Of a stretch of 24,346 nt of DNA, positions 2,170 to 23,919 are shown in pieces. The notes beneath the pieces were generated by a model. That model did no database searches. It saw nothing but the letters and a program-made list of their open reading frames with translations, and was not told the origin of the DNA. The translations under genes were made by a program, and so were the position numbers. This DNA comes from a virus, in IMG/VR virus record IMGVR_UViG_3300048686_000433, positions 1 through 24,346 of that record. The stretch is one strand, 5' to 3'. Position 1 is the first letter of the stretch. Each line of letters opens with the position of its first letter.

Positions 2170-3483
2170 ATGCCGATTTCTGGACTACAAGTAATTAATG
2201 TTGGGTTGCCAAATGAATCAAGTAATAGTGATTCATTATATACAGCTTTTAATAAAACAAAAGACAATTTTTCTAATCTTTTTGCTTGTGCTAGTCCATA
2301 TAATACATTTACTGGTAATGCAGGTATAGCAACTGCTGCAAACTCAACAACTGGTACAGTATTTTTAACAAATACAGGTGTATTAAGTATAACACCTGCG
2401 GATGGTAGTATTACTGTTACTTCCAGCAATGGTAATGTTCAAATCGCAGCAGTAGGTGGCGGGGGAAATGGCTCTGGTACAGTAACAAGTATTGGTATAT
2501 TAGGTGCAGCATCAAATGCTAGAATTACTGTGAGTGGTACTCCAATTGTTTCAGCAGGAAATATAACAATTGATTTGGCAACAAGTGGAGTTACAGCAGG
2601 TACGTATACATATCCAACTTTAACAGTTGATACATATGGTAGAGTAACTACAATTGCAAATGGCACAAGTGTCGGCACAGTCACAAGTGTTGGGATAAGC
2701 CCAGGTACAGGTATACAGGTAACAGGAAGCCCTATTACTACAAGTGGAACAATGTCAATTCTCAATACAGGTGTTACTAGACTATCAGCAGGCGCAGGCA
2801 TAAGTTTATCGGGATCAAATGGAGATGTTACAGTTAGTGCTACAACATCAGGAGGAACAGTGACAAGCGTTGGAGTGTCCAGTTCTACTTTAACTGTAAG
2901 CGGTAGTCCAATTGTTTCAACTGGTACAATCACAATAAACATTCCATCTACAATTTCATTGGCTGGTAATATTACAGGTGGTAATCTTATAGGTGTCTAT
3001 GCAAATGGTAATAGCAACATTAATATACCAAGTGCAAATGGAAATGTCAATATAAGCAGTGCTGGGAATGCTAATATCCTTATAGTTACAGGTACAGGGG
3101 CAAACATTGCAGGCACATTGTATACTACAGGTTCAATCTTAAGTAATGGTACAGCAGGTATAGGATATACTACTGGTGCTGGATCAACCGTCACACAATT
3201 AACTTCTAGAAGTACGTCTGTAACAATCAACGCAATTACTGGTGCAATTACATTGTTTTCAGCAGCAGGCACTTCAAGTTATACTTCATTTACTGTAACA
3301 AACAATAAAGTAGCCGCAACTGATGTAATTATTGTAAATCAAAAATCAGGCACAGATTTGTATAATGTATTTGTTACTAATGTTAGTGCAGGTAGTTTTA
3401 AAGTTACATTTAATGATGTTTCAGGTACAACAACGGAACAACCAGTGTTTAACTTTGCTGTAATAAAAGGGGTAACATCCTAA
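2170..3483 (+). CDS. Glycine/serine/threonine-rich phage tail fibre-like protein (437 aa)
   Basis: The composition is Gly, Ser, Thr, Val and Asn with almost no charge, typical of elongated phage fibre beta-structure. The N-terminus (MPISGLQVINVG, then SDSLYTAFNKTKDNFSNLF near 20-38) looks like an attachment region conserved in large-phage tail proteins. The middle has three copies of GTVTS(I/V)G(V/I), near residues 103, 168 and 230, each followed by a 'V(S/T)GSPI/TPIVS.G.I.I' strand. The C-terminus, from about GIGYTTGAGSTVTQ through SSYTSFTVTNN and VFNFAVIKG, resembles a terminal domain seen in many phage and prophage fibre proteins (family recall, not searched). Start: ATG 2170 with AAGAGG about 10 bases upstream. 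The 1400-residue fibre gene follows after 11 bases. Receptor binding is likely but not shown. Confidence 0.8.
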   Translation: MPISGLQVINVGLPNESSNSDSLYTAFNKTKDNFSNLFACASPYNTFTGNAGIATAANSTTGTVFLTNTGVLSITPADGSITVTSSNGNVQIAAVGGGGNGSGTVTSIGILGAASNARITVSGTPIVSAGNITIDLATSGVTAGTYTYPTLTVDTYGRVTTIANGTSVGTVTSVGISPGTGIQVTGSPITTSGTMSILNTGVTRLSAGAGISLSGSNGDVTVSATTSGGTVTSVGVSSSTLTVSGSPIVSTGTITINIPSTISLAGNITGGNLIGVYANGNSNINIPSANGNVNISSAGNANILIVTGTGANIAGTLYTTGSILSNGTAGIGYTTGAGSTVTQLTSRSTSVTINAITGAITLFSAAGTSSYTSFTVTNNKVAATDVIIVNQKSGTDLYNVFVTNVSAGSFKVTFNDVSGTTTEQPVFNFAVIKGVTS

Positions 3484-3494
3484 GGGTAAAAAGA

Positions 3495-6400
3495 ATGGCT
3501 AATGCTTTAGTAAAAATATCACAACTTAGTAATATAGGAAATAATTTAAGTGTCAATACATTAATACCTGTAGTTGATACATCTGGCAACTATATTACTG
3601 ATAAAACTACAGTAGGAAGTGTTGCCAATTTTATACTTAATGAGGCAGGAAACATTTTACCTGAAGCATTTGTAAGCACATTATCATACAATGTTATAAA
3701 CGCAGCACAACCAAATATTACAAGTGTTGGTACATTAACAGGGTTAACTGTAAGTAATCTAGCTAATTTTCATTTGCCAAGTGGCGTTAACGGATATGTT
3801 TTACAAACAAATGGAAATGGTAATCTTAGTTGGACAGCAATGGCAGGTTCAGGTAATGGAAATCCAGGTGGAGCCAATACACAAGTACAGTTTAATGATT
3901 CAGGACTTTTTGCTGGTGATAGTAATTTAACATATAATAAAAATACTGACACACTTAATACAGTTAATATAGAACTACTTGCCAATCTATATGCGGACTA
4001 TGCTGAACTTACACATGATTTGACTGCAAATGTGGTAATAGCAAATTACTTATACGGTGATGGTTCTAACATTACTAATGTATCTGTTAATAGTACCGCT
4101 TATGCAAATTTAGCAAACTTTGTTGTTGTAGAACAAGTTAACAATAACTATAGTTACCATGTTGTGTTAACAACCGGGGCTAATGATTATAGCTTACACA
4201 ATGACAGTGATGACAACTTCCAATATAACCCTCAAGAAGGGACATTAACTGTAACAAGAGTTGACACACAATATCTTCAAGTTGGAAATGTAATTTCAAA
4301 CATTACGCCTTGGTTAGATGTGACATATAACATAGGTAATGCTACTAATAGATTTAATGATATATACCTAGCGAACAGCACAATTTATTTAGGAAATGCT
4401 ACAATAAGTTCAAATGGTAATAGTATTGTTGTTGATAGTATCTCTATTAGTAACGGCAATGTAGGTACCATAGGTAATATAGCAAGCATCAATTTAAACG
4501 GAAACGGTAGTCAAGTATTAGCAGGTAATGGTACTTGGGTAGCACAATCAGGTGGTGGTAATGCTTCTTTACCATTGGCTAATGGTAATAGTAATATTAA
4601 TATCGCCACAGCAAACGGTCCAGTCACACTTACTTCGGCAGGGAATACATGGACAATAGGAACAGATGGTTCATTAACTGCACCTAACAATTCTAACATT
4701 TATCCAGCAGGTAATAACTTCAATGTGTTTACTCCCCCTGCAGGTTCAGTACAATTTTATTCAGACAATGGTAACTATAGTTGGTCACTAGACGGCTTTG
4801 GTGTAATGAATTTACCTTTCGCTAGTGCTATGAGTAACACCGCACTAGTTTATTCACCAGGTAATTTAAGACTTGATGCCGGTGCTAATAATTTTATGTT
4901 TACTGATATCGGAACTGTAGTATTCCCAACAATGACAGTTGATTTACACAACGGCGGTAATCAATATGCTCAGACATTACAGTTTGGTGATGATACTCAA
5001 CAAGCAGTTATAACAGGTCCTACTCCAGCAGCCAATGTAAATGCACAACGATTAATCATACAAGGTCAGCGTGGCAATGGCACAGGCGAAGGCGGTGATG
5101 TTTACTTTTGGGCTGGTGATGCTGATACCAACGGCGGTGATATAAAGATTTATGCAGGTGATGCTGACGGTGGTACTGGTTCTGGCGGATACATCAACAT
5201 TGATGCTGGTAATGGCCCTGATGGTGGCGGACAATTATCACTAAGCGGTGGTTATAGTTCAAATGGTCAAGGTGGTCAAATCTCCATAACCCCGGGTGCT
5301 AGTGCCAATGCCAACGGCGCTCCATTAAATTTAAACGGTGGTATAGGTTCTAGTGACGGTGGTAATGTTGTCATCACAGCAGGATATGGTCAAGCAAATG
5401 GTGGACAAGTAACTATTACAGGTGGTATATCAGCATTAGGATTAGCAAATTACGGTAATGTTGTTATCAATTCAGGTGCAAGTAGTTGGACATTTGACAA
5501 TAGCGGATTATTGTCATTACCAGGTGGTTATGTAAAGATTGGCGCACAATATGGTAGTGATGCTATTCTTTCAAGTAATGTAAGTTTTGGTGTAGCGACT
5601 CAAGGTAACGCAACAACATATATGAACTGGAGCGATGATGTAGCAAATACATCAGTAATGGCAGCAATCTATGTTAATGATCCAACAGGAAATGCAGGTA
5701 ACATAAGTGTTAGAACAGGTAATGTAGGAAATGCTAATGTTTGGAAGTTCGTTACTGATGGTAGTGTTATATTCCCAACATTAACAGTTGATATACATAA
5801 CGGTGGAAATCAACAAGCACAAACATTACAGTTTGGTGATCCAACACAACAAGCAATCATTACTGGTCCTACTCCAGCCGCAAACGTTAATGCTGAACGA
5901 TTAATCATTCAAGGTCAGCGTGGCAATGGTACAGGCGAAGGTGGAGATGTTTACTTCTGGGCTGGTGATAGTGATACTAACGGTGGTGACATAAAGATTT
6001 ACGCAGGTGATGCTGACGGTGGTACTGGCTATGGTGGTTACATCAACATTGATGCTGGTAATGGCCCTGATGGTGGCGGACAATTATCACTAAGCGGTGG
6101 CTATAGTTCAAATGGTCAAGGTGGTCAAGTCACTATTGCCCCAGGTGCTAGTGGTAACGGAAATGGTTCGCCGTTAAACTTAAACGGTGGTCAAGGAACA
6201 GGCGACGGCGGCAATGTTGTTATCACAGCAGGATATGGTCAAGCAAATGGTGGACAAGTAACAATAACCGGCGGACAATCAGCATTAGGCTTACCAGGTT
6301 ATGGCAATGTTGTTATTCAAGCAGGTGCAAGTGGTTGGACATTTGACAATACTGGTAACTTAGTATTAGCAGGTGGTAGTAGTGTCATTCAAAGTATTGC

Positions 6401-7697
6401 TAACAGTAGTTTAGACCCGACACTTCCTAATGTCAGCACAATGACATTGACACCGGATAGTAATTATACTTCACAAGTATTAGTATTAGACCCGACTGCT
6501 CCTGGTCATATTCACTTGAGAGCATTTGCAAGTTCTAATATTGATGAACCATCAGCCAATATATTCTTAGGTGGTGAGAACACAAGTTTTGAAGTCACAT
6601 CAGGCTCTAACAATGTGGCAAAAATACACAGTGGTGGCAATACTTGGACATTTACAAATGCAGGTGATTTACAACTAGCATCAGGTAACAGCGTAATCAG
6701 TAGTTTGCCTAACAATGCCGGTGATCTTAGTGGTCTAAGCACACTAAATCTATATCCAGATAGTAGCACAGGTGATGACCGTTATATTATTGTTGATCCA
6801 ACTGGTCCAAACCATATTCATATTCGTGCCGGTGGCGTACAAGACGGTAGTAACTCATTATTATTCTTAGGTGGCGAACAAGCATATACAAGAATTGATG
6901 ATTTCAACCATGAAGTTCAAATCGGCGCATATGATAGTGCCAATACAACTGGATATTATTGGTCATTTGGTAACACTGGAACATTGACTATTCCTGGTAA
7001 CCTTGTAGCAAGTGGAGCAAGTCCTGCACCTACACTAAGTGGGTTTAGTAGTTTAAGTGCCGCTGATGTTATCTCTGTCGGTAATGCTAACATTTACAGC
7101 AATGGACACATTGCTGCCAATACTGCTTCATTCTCGGGCAATGTAAGTGGTGATACAGCATTGTTCAATGACTTAAATCTAAATAATTTAGGTACCAACG
7201 CATTCTTATATACTAACAGCAACCGTGATGTATATGATACACAGTTTGGCTATGACAGTGCTAATGATACAATGTCCGGTGGTAATATATCATTAACTGG
7301 TAATATCACTGCTACAAACATTGGTAACATTTCTGGAGTTAACTTAGACGGCAGTTCAAGTAATGTGTTGTATGGTAACGGTGTATTCGCTCAACCTGCA
7401 AGTATTCCATTCGTGCTTGCTAATGCTAACATTACAGCGAATATTAATACTTCATACCAAATACTAAACTCAGTAGGTAACGCTAATATTAACTTTACAT
7501 TACCAGATGGTAATGGATTAGCGGCTGGTAGTTTTGTAAAGATCAATCCATATGATCAAGTCGGGGGAAACTTCCAATACTTTGTTGTGACTAATGGTGC
7601 CAACAGTGGAGGTATTCAGGGTCTTGGTGCACCATTGAGTGCAAACAGACCAACAACACTTGTTTGGGGTGGTAGTTTCTGGTATTATAGTAATTAA
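3495..7697 (+). CDS. Giant glycine/asparagine-rich phage fibre or adhesin (1400 aa)
   Basis: A 1400-residue protein dominated by Gly, Asn, Ser, Thr and Ala. The N-terminal region (LVKISQLSNIGNNLS..LIPVVD) looks like a tail attachment segment. GNGN-rich and 'YGDGSNITN'-type strands follow, then two near-identical 196-residue blocks (from about residues 476 and 759), each holding GTGEGGDVYFWAGD, DIKIYAGDADGGTG and GGYINIDAGNGPDGG repeats that suggest a beta-helix. Next come two related modules with 'DPTAPGHIHLRA' and 'DPTGPNHIHIRA', each ending in a 'W.F.N.G.L' strand. The C-terminus ends in TTLVWGGSFWYYSN. The short repeated WTFDN(S/T)G-type strands mark module ends. Likely a long tail fibre or host adhesin, with the C-terminus as tip. 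No enzymatic motif seen. The ribosome-binding site is weak (AAAAAGA just before ATG). Confidence 0.8.
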   Translation: MANALVKISQLSNIGNNLSVNTLIPVVDTSGNYITDKTTVGSVANFILNEAGNILPEAFVSTLSYNVINAAQPNITSVGTLTGLTVSNLANFHLPSGVNGYVLQTNGNGNLSWTAMAGSGNGNPGGANTQVQFNDSGLFAGDSNLTYNKNTDTLNTVNIELLANLYADYAELTHDLTANVVIANYLYGDGSNITNVSVNSTAYANLANFVVVEQVNNNYSYHVVLTTGANDYSLHNDSDDNFQYNPQEGTLTVTRVDTQYLQVGNVISNITPWLDVTYNIGNATNRFNDIYLANSTIYLGNATISSNGNSIVVDSISISNGNVGTIGNIASINLNGNGSQVLAGNGTWVAQSGGGNASLPLANGNSNINIATANGPVTLTSAGNTWTIGTDGSLTAPNNSNIYPAGNNFNVFTPPAGSVQFYSDNGNYSWSLDGFGVMNLPFASAMSNTALVYSPGNLRLDAGANNFMFTDIGTVVFPTMTVDLHNGGNQYAQTLQFGDDTQQAVITGPTPAANVNAQRLIIQGQRGNGTGEGGDVYFWAGDADTNGGDIKIYAGDADGGTGSGGYINIDAGNGPDGGGQLSLSGGYSSNGQGGQISITPGASANANGAPLNLNGGIGSSDGGNVVITAGYGQANGGQVTITGGISALGLANYGNVVINSGASSWTFDNSGLLSLPGGYVKIGAQYGSDAILSSNVSFGVATQGNATTYMNWSDDVANTSVMAAIYVNDPTGNAGNISVRTGNVGNANVWKFVTDGSVIFPTLTVDIHNGGNQQAQTLQFGDPTQQAIITGPTPAANVNAERLIIQGQRGNGTGEGGDVYFWAGDSDTNGGDIKIYAGDADGGTGYGGYINIDAGNGPDGGGQLSLSGGYSSNGQGGQVTIAPGASGNGNGSPLNLNGGQGTGDGGNVVITAGYGQANGGQVTITGGQSALGLPGYGNVVIQAGASGWTFDNTGNLVLAGGSSVIQSIANSSLDPTLPNVSTMTLTPDSNYTSQVLVLDPTAPGHIHLRAFASSNIDEPSANIFLGGENTSFEVTSGSNNVAKIHSGGNTWTFTNAGDLQLASGNSVISSLPNNAGDLSGLSTLNLYPDSSTGDDRYIIVDPTGPNHIHIRAGGVQDGSNSLLFLGGEQAYTRIDDFNHEVQIGAYDSANTTGYYWSFGNTGTLTIPGNLVASGASPAPTLSGFSSLSAADVISVGNANIYSNGHIAANTASFSGNVSGDTALFNDLNLNNLGTNAFLYTNSNRDVYDTQFGYDSANDTMSGGNISLTGNITATNIGNISGVNLDGSSSNVLYGNGVFAQPASIPFVLANANITANINTSYQILNSVGNANINFTLPDGNGLAAGSFVKINPYDQVGGNFQYFVVTNGANSGGIQGLGAPLSANRPTTLVWGGSFWYYSN
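4921..5507 (+). repeat. Tandem module copy 1 inside the giant fibre gene
   Basis: This 587-base block encodes FPTMTVDLHNGG through SWTFDNSG. It matches the block at 5770-6356 with the same length, so there is no net gap, and the proteins differ at only a minority of positions. The period is 849 bases, or 283 codons, so each module has about 88 codons of less conserved linker. Confidence 0.85.
5770..6356 (+). repeat. Tandem module copy 2 inside the giant fibre gene
   Basis: This block encodes FPTLTVDIHNGG through GWTFDNTG and is the second copy of 4921-5507. The DNA is closest in the central part (for example GGTCAGCGTGGCAATGG in both copies). Towards the ends many third-position changes separate the copies, so the duplication is not recent, or the core has been homogenised. 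Confidence 0.85.
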
Positions 7698-21218: not shown

Positions 21219-21830
21219 ATGGAAAATAACTTTGGATTAAATTTTGATGAGACTATTGGCCCATATGCTTCGTTCAAGCATGGTTTGGTCACTAGTAAAA
21301 TATGGTTGTGCGAGGAATTGGAAAGAGTTATTAAAAATCGGGCAATAAAGAATCCGGATATGTATTTGCTAGGGTCTTGGCATAATTTACTGTCATTTAT
21401 GCTGATAGTTCGTAATCCAAAATTGTACAATATTTTTAATTGTTACGACAAAGACCATTCTAGCATCGCTGTAAGCAATCAAATATGTGACACGTGGCAG
21501 TATGAATATCCCAGAGTTATGAACCATCATAGAAATGTAGACGATATTGAATTTTCATCTGCCGGTGATCAGAGTATATTCATTAACTGTAGTGTAGATC
21601 AATTCGAAGGTACTGACTGGTATAAAAAAATACCAGACAACAGGTTAGTGTGCTTACAATCTACAGATTTACCTATAAACCATAATGATTGGGAAATCAA
21701 GCAAAGTTATGACTTGATTTCAGACTTTACTAATGTATATAAAGTAAGAGAACTTATATTCTCAGGTACAAAGTTTTATGATTACGGGACTACCAAATAT
21801 AAACGACATATGTTTATAGGCATCAAGTAG
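21219..21830 (+). CDS. Class I SAM-dependent methyltransferase-like protein (203 aa)
   Basis: A 203-residue protein. MYLLGSWHNLLSFML (48-62) is a motif-I-like strand-loop-helix, then IFNCYDKD (72-79) with Asp77 as the acidic ribose-binding position. IFINCSVDQFEGTDWYKKIPDNRLVCLQSTDLP (120-152) fits motifs III and IV. The ending ELIFSGTKFYDYG...KRHMFIGIK resembles phage methyltransferase-like proteins in large marine phages (memory). No DNA-methyltransferase catalytic motif (DPPY or PC) is seen, so the target is probably a protein, small molecule or glycan. Its end overlaps the end of the opposite-strand PP-loop gene by eight bases. AT-rich, unlike the early block. There is no Shine-Dalgarno. 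Confidence 0.6.
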   Translation: MENNFGLNFDETIGPYASFKHGLVTSKIWLCEELERVIKNRAIKNPDMYLLGSWHNLLSFMLIVRNPKLYNIFNCYDKDHSSIAVSNQICDTWQYEYPRVMNHHRNVDDIEFSSAGDQSIFINCSVDQFEGTDWYKKIPDNRLVCLQSTDLPINHNDWEIKQSYDLISDFTNVYKVRELIFSGTKFYDYGTTKYKRHMFIGIK

Positions 21831-23028
21831 CATCTTTCATATAATATTTCTTAGCATATACCCCGAGTGTTCCCATAAAAGGATCACCGTTATTAAAAAT
21901 ATTACTATAAGTTGTTTTTAGAAAAGTCATTGCTTGCGAAAAATTATAAGCAGATTCCCAATTTTCTCCCAATGCATCATTGAGTAATTTTTGAAAGATG
22001 GCTTCTCTTCCGTTATTTTTATGTTTGCTTCTGCCATTTTGAATTGTTAAATTCAGATTCCAAGCAGGTCCTCTACCACAACCCACACAATAGTCATCAT
22101 AGTAAATACTGTGCGAATTGCCACAATATTCTTTTAAGAACTCGTTAGTGATACTTGTACCATAACGAATTTTTTTAGTTGTACCTATTATTGAAAATTC
22201 TTCTCCTGCCGGCTTAGTTAACATTCCTGATATACCGGACATAGGAGTGTTCATGTCCAAATAAATGTTATTGCCATATTTTCGTTCAATGTGATTTAAC
22301 AACATCCAACTTTGTTTGACATGAATCTTAGGCATATCCGGAGCATAGTAAAAATACTCAAGGTTTGGACTCTCAGTAATAAACGTTTCTAGTGTCTTAT
22401 CAATAATCGTAGAATAATACTTGCCATCTTCTAATAATAGTCTTGGCTTATCGACACCTATTATTATGCCATGATTAGGTTCGTCTGCATGTAATATTTG
22501 TTTTACATACCATCCAAAGTTAGTAGGTTGAAAATAAGAATGTGCTAATGCAGTAGAGGGGTTTTCTAACCAATCTTCTGTAAAAAAATCATCATACTGA
22601 TCTGGGCCAACATCAATTACTTTGACTTTTGTGTTTGGGTATGCTCTAATAAAATCTGCTACCTGAGGATAAATATAACTAATTAGTTGATATTGTCGCT
22701 CAGGATTCATTGTATAATTTATTAGTACGATTTCATCTAATGGTATTTTCCAATAGTAAAAACATTTTATAATATGATGGCTGTCACGGCCGGCACTGTA
22801 AAACAAACTTAATTTCTTATAACGTTGTCTAAGAAGTTGACAACGCTCAAAACATAATTCATCCCAAGTTTCAGATGGCTCTACAGTCCAATCCACTTCA
22901 TTGTACTGATCTTCAAAGAAATAAAAATGTGGCTTTACTTCTGAACCTAAACTTCTAGCATATCGCCATGCATCAAATTGACTTGATGTTCGTTGTCCGT
23001 TAACTACCCAATGAGGTGAAAAATACAT
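21823..23028 (-). CDS. PP-loop ATPase (asparagine-synthase/ATP-pyrophosphatase-like, 401 aa)
   Basis: A 401-residue protein. The PP-loop is LFYSAGRDSHHII, residues 76-88, where the usual SGGxDS reads SAGRDS (78-83). A second conserved piece, IIIGVDKPRLLL (188-199), fits the nucleotide-binding part of PP-loop enzymes. C302, C314 and C317 (YCGNSH...DDYCVGCG) could bind a metal; this CxxC-type pattern differs from classical asparagine synthase. There is no N-terminal glutaminase Cys, so it would need another nitrogen or sulfur donor. ATP-PPases activate a carboxyl or base by adenylation. Candidates are amide formation, sulfur transfer or nucleobase modification. Its ATG is one base after the tctC-like stop, so it is in the same operon. 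Confidence 0.72.
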   Translation of the reverse strand: MYFSPHWVVNGQRTSSQFDAWRYARSLGSEVKPHFYFFEDQYNEVDWTVEPSETWDELCFERCQLLRQRYKKLSLFYSAGRDSHHIIKCFYYWKIPLDEIVLINYTMNPERQYQLISYIYPQVADFIRAYPNTKVKVIDVGPDQYDDFFTEDWLENPSTALAHSYFQPTNFGWYVKQILHADEPNHGIIIGVDKPRLLLEDGKYYSTIIDKTLETFITESPNLEYFYYAPDMPKIHVKQSWMLLNHIERKYGNNIYLDMNTPMSGISGMLTKPAGEEFSIIGTTKKIRYGTSITNEFLKEYCGNSHSIYYDDYCVGCGRGPAWNLNLTIQNGRSKHKNNGREAIFQKLLNDALGENWESAYNFSQAMTFLKTTYSNIFNNGDPFMGTLGVYAKKYYMKDAT

Positions 23029-23029
23029 G

Positions 23030-23914
23030 TTATTTCGCTGCCGATTTAATTAATTGTCGGATTTCATCTGTGCTCAAAGTCACAGGACTTGATCCTATTT
23101 TTTCTAGTTTATCTATTATTTCTTTATCATTATTACATATTTGTACAAGTTTTACAATAGAAGTTCTTGAATCTTTATTCAATTCAGGGTTTACACTTAA
23201 TATTATTCCCAATGGAATATTGCCAAGTTTACTATTATAATGTTCAATACTCTTATGCTTATAGTATGATGCAGTTTTTTTATCTAGAGTGCTGGTTACA
23301 ATTGTAACTTTTTCAGTTTCAGCAAAACGTTTTGCGCTTATGAACGTATCTATGGCTACATCTATACTTCCATTTAATACATCCACTAATGCATTAGTAT
23401 TGTTCTTGTAAGATATGTTCTGATAGTTTATATTTAAAGACTTAAATAAATTATCAGATAAAAATATTCCTGATGCAGTTGAAACACCTACATTAACTGG
23501 TCGTTGTTTTGAAAGTTTTATTAAATCCTCAATCGTTTCTATTGTGCCTGCTTTAGAAACAAAAGCCATATTTACTTGATTAAGATACGTAATTGGATGA
23601 ACATCATCAAGCATACTAAAGTTAGGAAACTTGACTAAAGCACTCATGCCAAAGTTTCCAACTAATATATTGGTAGTTTTATCTGTATCCGTTTGTTGAG
23701 TTAAATTTTTTGCTGCTATAAGACCTTCGGCTCCGGGTCTAAAATCTTTAATTACTAAAAAATTATTTCTTTTAAAGCAAGGAGCATATGCATCCACAGT
23801 AATATCAGATCCCGAGCCTGGGCCCGATGACATGATTAATTTTAATGTGTGATTGGTTTGACTGAAAACCTGTGTAGTTAGGAAAAATAAAAGTATAGGA
23901 ATGTATTTTATCAT
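23030..23914 (-). CDS. TctC/Bug-type tripartite tricarboxylate transporter binding protein
   Basis: A 294-residue protein with an N-terminal signal peptide (MIKYIPILLFFLTTQVFSQ, cleavage near 19-20). The Bug signature pieces are present: LIMSSGPGSGSDITVDAY (about 27-44), FRPGAEGLIAAKNL (about 59-73), NILVGNFGM, VNVGVSTASGIFLSDNLFKSLNI and VDVLNGSIDVAIDTF. Normal family length is about 320, so it is a little short. These periplasmic proteins bind small carboxylates for TctAB permeases and are very abundant in Burkholderiales; no permease gene is near. ATG 23914 is chosen, not TTG 23917. A TAAATA box five bases upstream makes a leaderless message possible. Unusual in a phage. It precedes the PP-loop gene by one base. 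Confidence 0.82.
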   Translation of the reverse strand: MIKYIPILLFFLTTQVFSQTNHTLKLIMSSGPGSGSDITVDAYAPCFKRNNFLVIKDFRPGAEGLIAAKNLTQQTDTDKTTNILVGNFGMSALVKFPNFSMLDDVHPITYLNQVNMAFVSKAGTIETIEDLIKLSKQRPVNVGVSTASGIFLSDNLFKSLNINYQNISYKNNTNALVDVLNGSIDVAIDTFISAKRFAETEKVTIVTSTLDKKTASYYKHKSIEHYNSKLGNIPLGIILSVNPELNKDSRTSIVKLVQICNNDKEIIDKLEKIGSSPVTLSTDEIRQLIKSAAK

Positions 23915-23919
23915 CAAGA

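Follow-up and report, generated by a model that had tools for sequence, protein, structure and literature searches.

A recurrent phage operon type that couples a TctC-type solute-binding protein to an unnamed PP-loop family

In many divergent phages, a gene for a solute-binding protein (SBP) of the TctC/Bug family stands next to a gene for a PP-loop protein. This pairing, analysed here from a 24.3-kb IMG/VR virus fragment (24,346 nt; the window in what follows), is genuine and recurrent, and it constitutes an undescribed type of phage operon, in which a known transporter family is joined to a PP-loop family that has no name. On balance, the pair probably serves as a phage-borne module for the import and activation of a small carboxylate.

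The pair in the window and in other phages

The window encodes RIIA and RIIB homologues, the former 37% identical to the RIIA of T4-type phages over part of its length only. On the minus strand, the SBP gene is followed, after a gap of one base, by the PP-loop gene (Table 1), the SBP stop codon ending at 23030 and the PP-loop ATG lying at 23028. The SBP has 294 aa when counted from the ATG at 23914 and 295 aa when counted from the TTG at 23917, which opens the reading frame. Both reading frames and their one-base coupling, as claimed in a preliminary description of the sequence, are present at these positions.

Table 1. Features at and around the SBP/PP-loop pair, in positions of the window
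Feature	Position	Strand	Basis
TctC/Bug-family solute-binding protein (SBP)	23030..23914	-	Pfam TctC; PDB matches Bug27, TphC-like, BugD
PP-loop ATP-pyrophosphatase-like protein, 401 aa, new family	21823..23028	-	signature in 54/54 relatives; AlphaFold2 core
PP-loop motif SAGRDS, residues 78-83	22780..22797	-	sequence and conservation in relatives
GVDKPR, second conserved family motif, residues 191-196	22441..22458	-	G191 in 54/54; K194 and P195 in 52/54 each
KQ, third conserved family motif, residues 238-239	22312..22317	-	K238 and Q239 in 52/54 each
Convergent 203-aa protein, class I methyltransferase-like fold	21219..21830	+	14 aligned copies; predicted fold

Relatives were gathered by scanning viral sequences with the PP-loop protein and a profile, and then by scans seeded with distant members; an SBP was never the query in the scans that yielded these loci. 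The first viral scans gave copies 62-67% identical to the window PP-loop protein and one distant member. Removal of near-copies left 54 distinct relatives, all but one on viral contigs (up to 525 kb). The sole cellular relative in a scan of bacterial and archaeal genomes, which relies on short patterns and may therefore miss distant members, is a chromosomal protein of a Bacteriovoracaceae MAG, and it has no SBP.

Among the 52 informative relatives, 25 have an SBP gene within 60 nt on the same strand, upstream in 19 cases and downstream in 6, with spacings that include -4, -1, +1 and +2 nt and with frequent overlaps of 1-4 nt. The pair is thus conserved in many divergent phages, and the possibility, raised along with the preliminary description, that no other genome would contain it does not hold. 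The remaining 27 relatives have no SBP within 60 nt, which means that the PP-loop enzyme needs no genetically coupled SBP. When gene identity was shuffled within 15 representative loci for 20,000 rounds, 2.9 of the 20 SBPs were expected to touch a PP-loop gene, to be compared with the 13 that do so, a number reached in none of the 20,000 shuffles. When the window clade (16 relatives) is left out, 9 of 12 SBPs touch a PP-loop gene and 2.4 are expected to.

To see how the pairs have formed, consider locus L068 together with L073/L074. Their PP-loop proteins are 61-67% identical, while the SBP of L068 is only 16-20% identical to those of the other two and is encoded on the opposite side of the PP-loop gene. 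Such divergence of the SBPs and such opposite orders point to an SBP partner that was recruited separately, and more than once. Locus L025 has two separate SBP/PP-loop pairs in opposite orders, with ATGA-type overlaps in both. On the PP-loop tree, the SBP-adjacency label changes about 10-12 times (11 changes in the case of 'no SBP', of which starred branches force 9); the count is approximate, the tree having been built quickly and having long branches.

The PP-loop family and the facing gene

The window PP-loop protein has no usable sequence match in the PDB, Pfam, PHROGs, NCBIfam or the phage record collection, and no Pfam or NCBIfam model of a named PP-loop subfamily (asparagine synthetase, QueC, NadE, LarE) matches it. 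Family searches also found no glutaminase domain, as had been noted earlier. In about 50,000 named phage records there is no match to this protein, nor to a member of the other large clade of the family.

The signature S-[GA]-G-x-D-[ST] has S78, G80 and D82 invariant in all 54 relatives and S or T at residue 83. Its second position is G in 38 relatives and A in 16, with A confined to the window clade. The reading SAGRDS in place of SGGxDS, to which attention had been drawn in the window, is accordingly present and fixed in this 16-member clade, but it is not a one-off, and the other 38 relatives read SGGxD[S/T]. A CxxC pair had been listed as a further feature. Within the window clade only 6 of the 16 members share it (second cysteine), and the rest of the family lacks the pair; a catalytic role is therefore unlikely, and for want of conservation the CxxC was discarded as a candidate catalytic feature.

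An AlphaFold2 (AF2) model, made with a 21-row alignment, has a mean pLDDT of 61, with the core blocks mostly at 70-94 and weak regions outside the core. The core is matched in the PDB by LarE, MnmA, NadE, TtuA and NcsA, with probabilities up to 0.99 and a best E value of only 3.8e-3, and the first 23 PDB matches are all PP-loop enzymes by name. Unnamed proteins of uncultured phages match the model with E values down to 3e-17. By its predicted fold, the protein matches a PP-loop-type enzyme, and one that would be a member of no curated family. Placement in an AsnB-like or a LarE-like branch was weighed, and the evidence does not decide between them. With PP-loop ATP pyrophosphatases such as LarE, NadE, MnmA, QueC and AsnB, the family shares the signature and a matching predicted core; it differs from them in having an N-terminal region of its own (W47, E50-P51) and its own motifs GxDKP and KQ, and in lacking a glutaminase domain and a family model. 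The dN/dS values are 0.03-0.06 for the PP-loop gene and 0.05-0.23 for the SBP gene. Both genes are thus under purifying selection, and from this it follows that both are used.

Two of the contigs with window-clade members are 352 and 525 kb long, and each has a major capsid gene of the T4 type. Searching the large contigs with phrog_612 (RIIA) yielded no matches and odd control matches, and the result was set aside. The 525-kb contig (G002) has at 124000-137000 a dense island, L052, of PP-loop, PP-loop-GNAT fusion, 2OG oxygenase, sulfotransferase-like, desaturase and radical SAM genes. A member of a second, shorter PP-loop family (about 290 aa, SGGxDS), absent from the window, is encoded in most of the window clade next to the methyltransferase-like gene that in the window faces the pair (L005:6420-7286 and equivalents).

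The gene that faces the pair in the window overlaps the PP-loop stop by 8 bases, and its product has no Pfam match. The predicted model of this protein (pLDDT 82) is matched by Foldseek to the methyltransferases METTL6, Hen1 and ChlM (probability 1.00, E 1e-7). The glycine-rich motif I is absent: the window has LGSWHNLL at this site, and most copies have LASWDNLL or a similar stretch. The gene had been described as methyltransferase-like and as facing the pair, which fits the class I fold of the model and its convergent position, but a canonical SAM loop is missing. Within the window clade the gene is conserved in this convergent position, and it was not seen beside PP-loop genes outside the clade; being a steady neighbour in that clade only, it is no part of the recurring module. 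Far from the pair, at 1852-2127, the window has an A-type iron-sulfur carrier-like reading frame, the C-terminus of which seems altered at the expected cysteine pair.

The solute-binding protein and its link to transporter genes

The SBP matches the Pfam TctC model with an E value of 2e-10 and 41.1 bits, above the cut-off of 27, and its HMMER profile matches PDB chains of Bug27, BugD and TphC-like or terephthalate-binding proteins, so that its earlier assignment as a TctC-type binding protein is borne out. The N-terminus, MIKYIPILLFFLTTQVFSQ, is hydrophobic and resembles a signal peptide, and inspection of the sequences finds it alike in 12 SBPs. TctC-type SBPs have a pincer motif, P-F-x-A-G-G-x-x-D (PMC5812351), which in the window SBP reads SSGPGSGSD, with the first G and the D retained and P, F and the second G altered. 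Several other phage SBPs retain PPGG or SPGG at this site, and most retain a later motif of the PGAxG type. The SBP copies in aligned relatives are 43-50% identical, while the plasmid-borne cellular TctC proteins found here are only 21-30% identical to the window SBP. Since the phage SBPs are very diverse, their ligands may differ between phages. The nearest plasmid-borne TctC genes are found in Cupriavidus, Variovorax and other Burkholderiales, an order very rich in TctC, and this gives only a hint of a Burkholderiales host.

The pair is linked to transporter genes. The nine records searched first, which are from the closest relatives and include the 352- and 525-kb contigs, yielded no TctA gene. 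In two distant phages, TctA stands in an operon with the PP-loop gene. In the first of these (L063/L064), the operon consists of the PP-loop gene, TctA (Pfam E 2e-62) and a gene in the SBP position for a 301-aa protein with a signal-like N-terminus, which is only a candidate SBP because no TctC model matches it. The two contigs (117 and 338 kb) encode a T4-type capsid, a late sigma factor, an SbcCD-like nuclease and baseplate proteins. In the second phage, present in two assemblies (L077/L088), the SBP, a 63-aa TctB-like protein (E 3e-5, below the cut-off), TctA (E 7e-139) and the PP-loop protein are encoded in one run, at L088:3985-7686 (= L077:371-4072). The 99.5-kb viral contig L088 is apparently that of a phage with a complete tripartite tricarboxylate transporter. 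In L077, an AMP-binding protein is encoded downstream. Nine partial records yielded no Terminase_6C, so that the phage nature of the L077 record rests on the IMG/VR call together with its phage-type genes; the record encodes a virion structural protein, a phage-type DNA polymerase, an exonuclease and a ribonucleotide reductase.

In a third operon (L091/L092), which has no PP-loop gene, TctA (E 7e-39) is accompanied by an SBP-like protein, a Gram-negative porin and an AMP-binding ligase; the row on the viral contig (L091:4745-10349) also includes a hexapeptide transferase. Judged by its gene content, it would be a case where a different class of carboxylate-activating enzyme stands behind the same type of transporter. 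Bacterial TctA genes also occur in named 'phage' records (among them AGRM01000002.1, OR845272.1 and OR851239.1), which are Salmonella- or E. coli-derived or are short unannotated gut records; they are probably host DNA and were set aside.

In bacteria, most TctC proteins are orphans, the membrane partners of which are encoded elsewhere, and some adjoin enzymes that use the ligand (PMC8556258, PMC5812351): tphC lies inside its catabolic operon, apart from tpiA/tpiB (PMC8556258), and orphan TctC genes adjoin arylmalonate decarboxylases (PMC5812351). The phage pair resembles such bacterial cases (TphC with the tph genes; Bug27 and Bug69) in protein family, in the coupling of SBP to enzyme and in a permease encoded elsewhere; it differs from them in being phage-borne and in having as partner a PP-loop protein without a named family. 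Single binding proteins that raise the uptake of an element are known from phages, PstS being one; it serves phosphate uptake by an ABC transporter. In the case of cyanophage PstS, the phage contributes the binding protein alone to an uptake system of the host (PMC6359870), and in this it resembles the present case. The present pair belongs instead to the TTT family and has a coupled putative activating enzyme, which PstS lacks, and sometimes a permease too.

The statement that no described phage system is like the pair holds within the libraries searched. The sole related mention in the literature searched is of tctA, which PMC4164917 lists from a SUP05 viral contig as a gene that may be viral, and which the review PMC6359870 lists too. 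That contig likewise has a TTT permease domain on a sequence called viral, but it is a single domain match, and the passage concerned in PMC4164917 describes no SBP or PP-loop partner.

A possible function of the pair

In the import-and-activate reading, which is the one favoured here, the SBP would be exported to the periplasm, where it would catch a small carboxylate and pass it to the tripartite tricarboxylate transporter TctA/TctB. TctAB would usually be the host's and sometimes the phage's, a borrowed host permease, such as bacterial orphan TctC proteins use, being suggested by the fact that most of these phages, the window included, encode no TctA. The cytoplasmic PP-loop protein would then bind ATP and, releasing pyrophosphate, adenylate the imported carboxylate or a carboxylate partner, and the activated carboxylate would be handed to an amine or another nucleophile. 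This putative sequence, from capture through TctAB to adenylation, has support from gene content and gene order only. Many N-type PP-loop enzymes (AsnB, NadE, QueC) adenylate a carboxylate, which would fit with a carboxylate-binding partner.

The preliminary description had guessed at a combined module that takes up or modifies a carboxylate, or that modifies a surface or nucleic acid. Carboxylate uptake and action gain support from the conservation of the pair in divergent phages and from TctA in the operon in two of them, but the modification of a surface or nucleic acid has no direct support. A wider proposal, put forward tentatively, is that large aquatic phages, giant ones included, may have a dedicated import-and-activate pathway, in which the phage provides an SBP, at times along with a complete TTT transporter, and PP-loop enzymes of a phage-specific family make a new compound from an environmental carboxylate in the course of infection. 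An uptake protein is here repeatedly coupled to one specific cytoplasmic enzyme that has no name, and in two cases to the permease as well, across phages where the enzymes share only 20-30% identity; infected cells would then import and activate a particular carboxylate on behalf of the phage. Because SBP and enzyme are paired, the ligand of the SBP would point to the substrate of the PP-loop enzyme, so that the SBP provides a handle on a substrate that sequence alone cannot name.

In one alternative, which is unlikely, though less so than the others, the PP-loop protein would act on a macromolecule (virion protein, glycan, lipid or nucleic acid) to modify it, the SBP being a passenger on a shared promoter. 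In its favour, the PP-loop gene of many relatives lies, without an SBP, in islands of 2OG oxygenase, radical SAM, sulfotransferase-like and desaturase genes, and the best fold matches include LarE and MnmA. What speaks against a passenger SBP is an adjacency far above chance, re-pairing that took place independently several times, and the existence of the TctA operons. As a coupled SBP is missing in roughly half of the family, and several of the members without one lie in oxygenase/radical SAM islands, the PP-loop enzyme may have several uses or may use an intracellular substrate. It is improbable that the SBP is a periplasmic sensor or decoy, acting in signalling or in a superinfection block rather than in transport, with the PP-loop protein separate from it: such a role would agree with the signalling function proposed for over-abundant bacterial TctC (PMC5812351) and with the lack of TctA in the contigs of 352 and 525 kb, the longest of all, but neither with TctA in the operon in two phage lineages nor with a third lineage that has TctA together with a porin and an SBP-like protein. 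That metabolic genes gathered by chance in a hypervariable phage island, and that the pair has no joint function, would account for the strong reshuffling of gene content around the pair among relatives, but this reading is already disfavoured, and very improbable, given the permutation result, the 1-4 nt overlaps in both gene orders and the purifying selection on both genes.

Some of the loci encode other proteins of related kinds. In the window clade, a second, upstream TctC gene is coupled to a sulfotransferase-like gene (L009:3571-6644 and equivalents in L005, L011-L016, L019-L022); next come a 228-aa gene and, in several of these loci, a gene for an APS-kinase-like protein with a possible cytidylyltransferase-like tail. 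On the viral contig L079, two TRAP-type DctP SBPs, apparently with no signal peptide, are encoded at 2409-3371 (+) and 6128-7165 (-) and adjoin SBP/PP-loop pairs.
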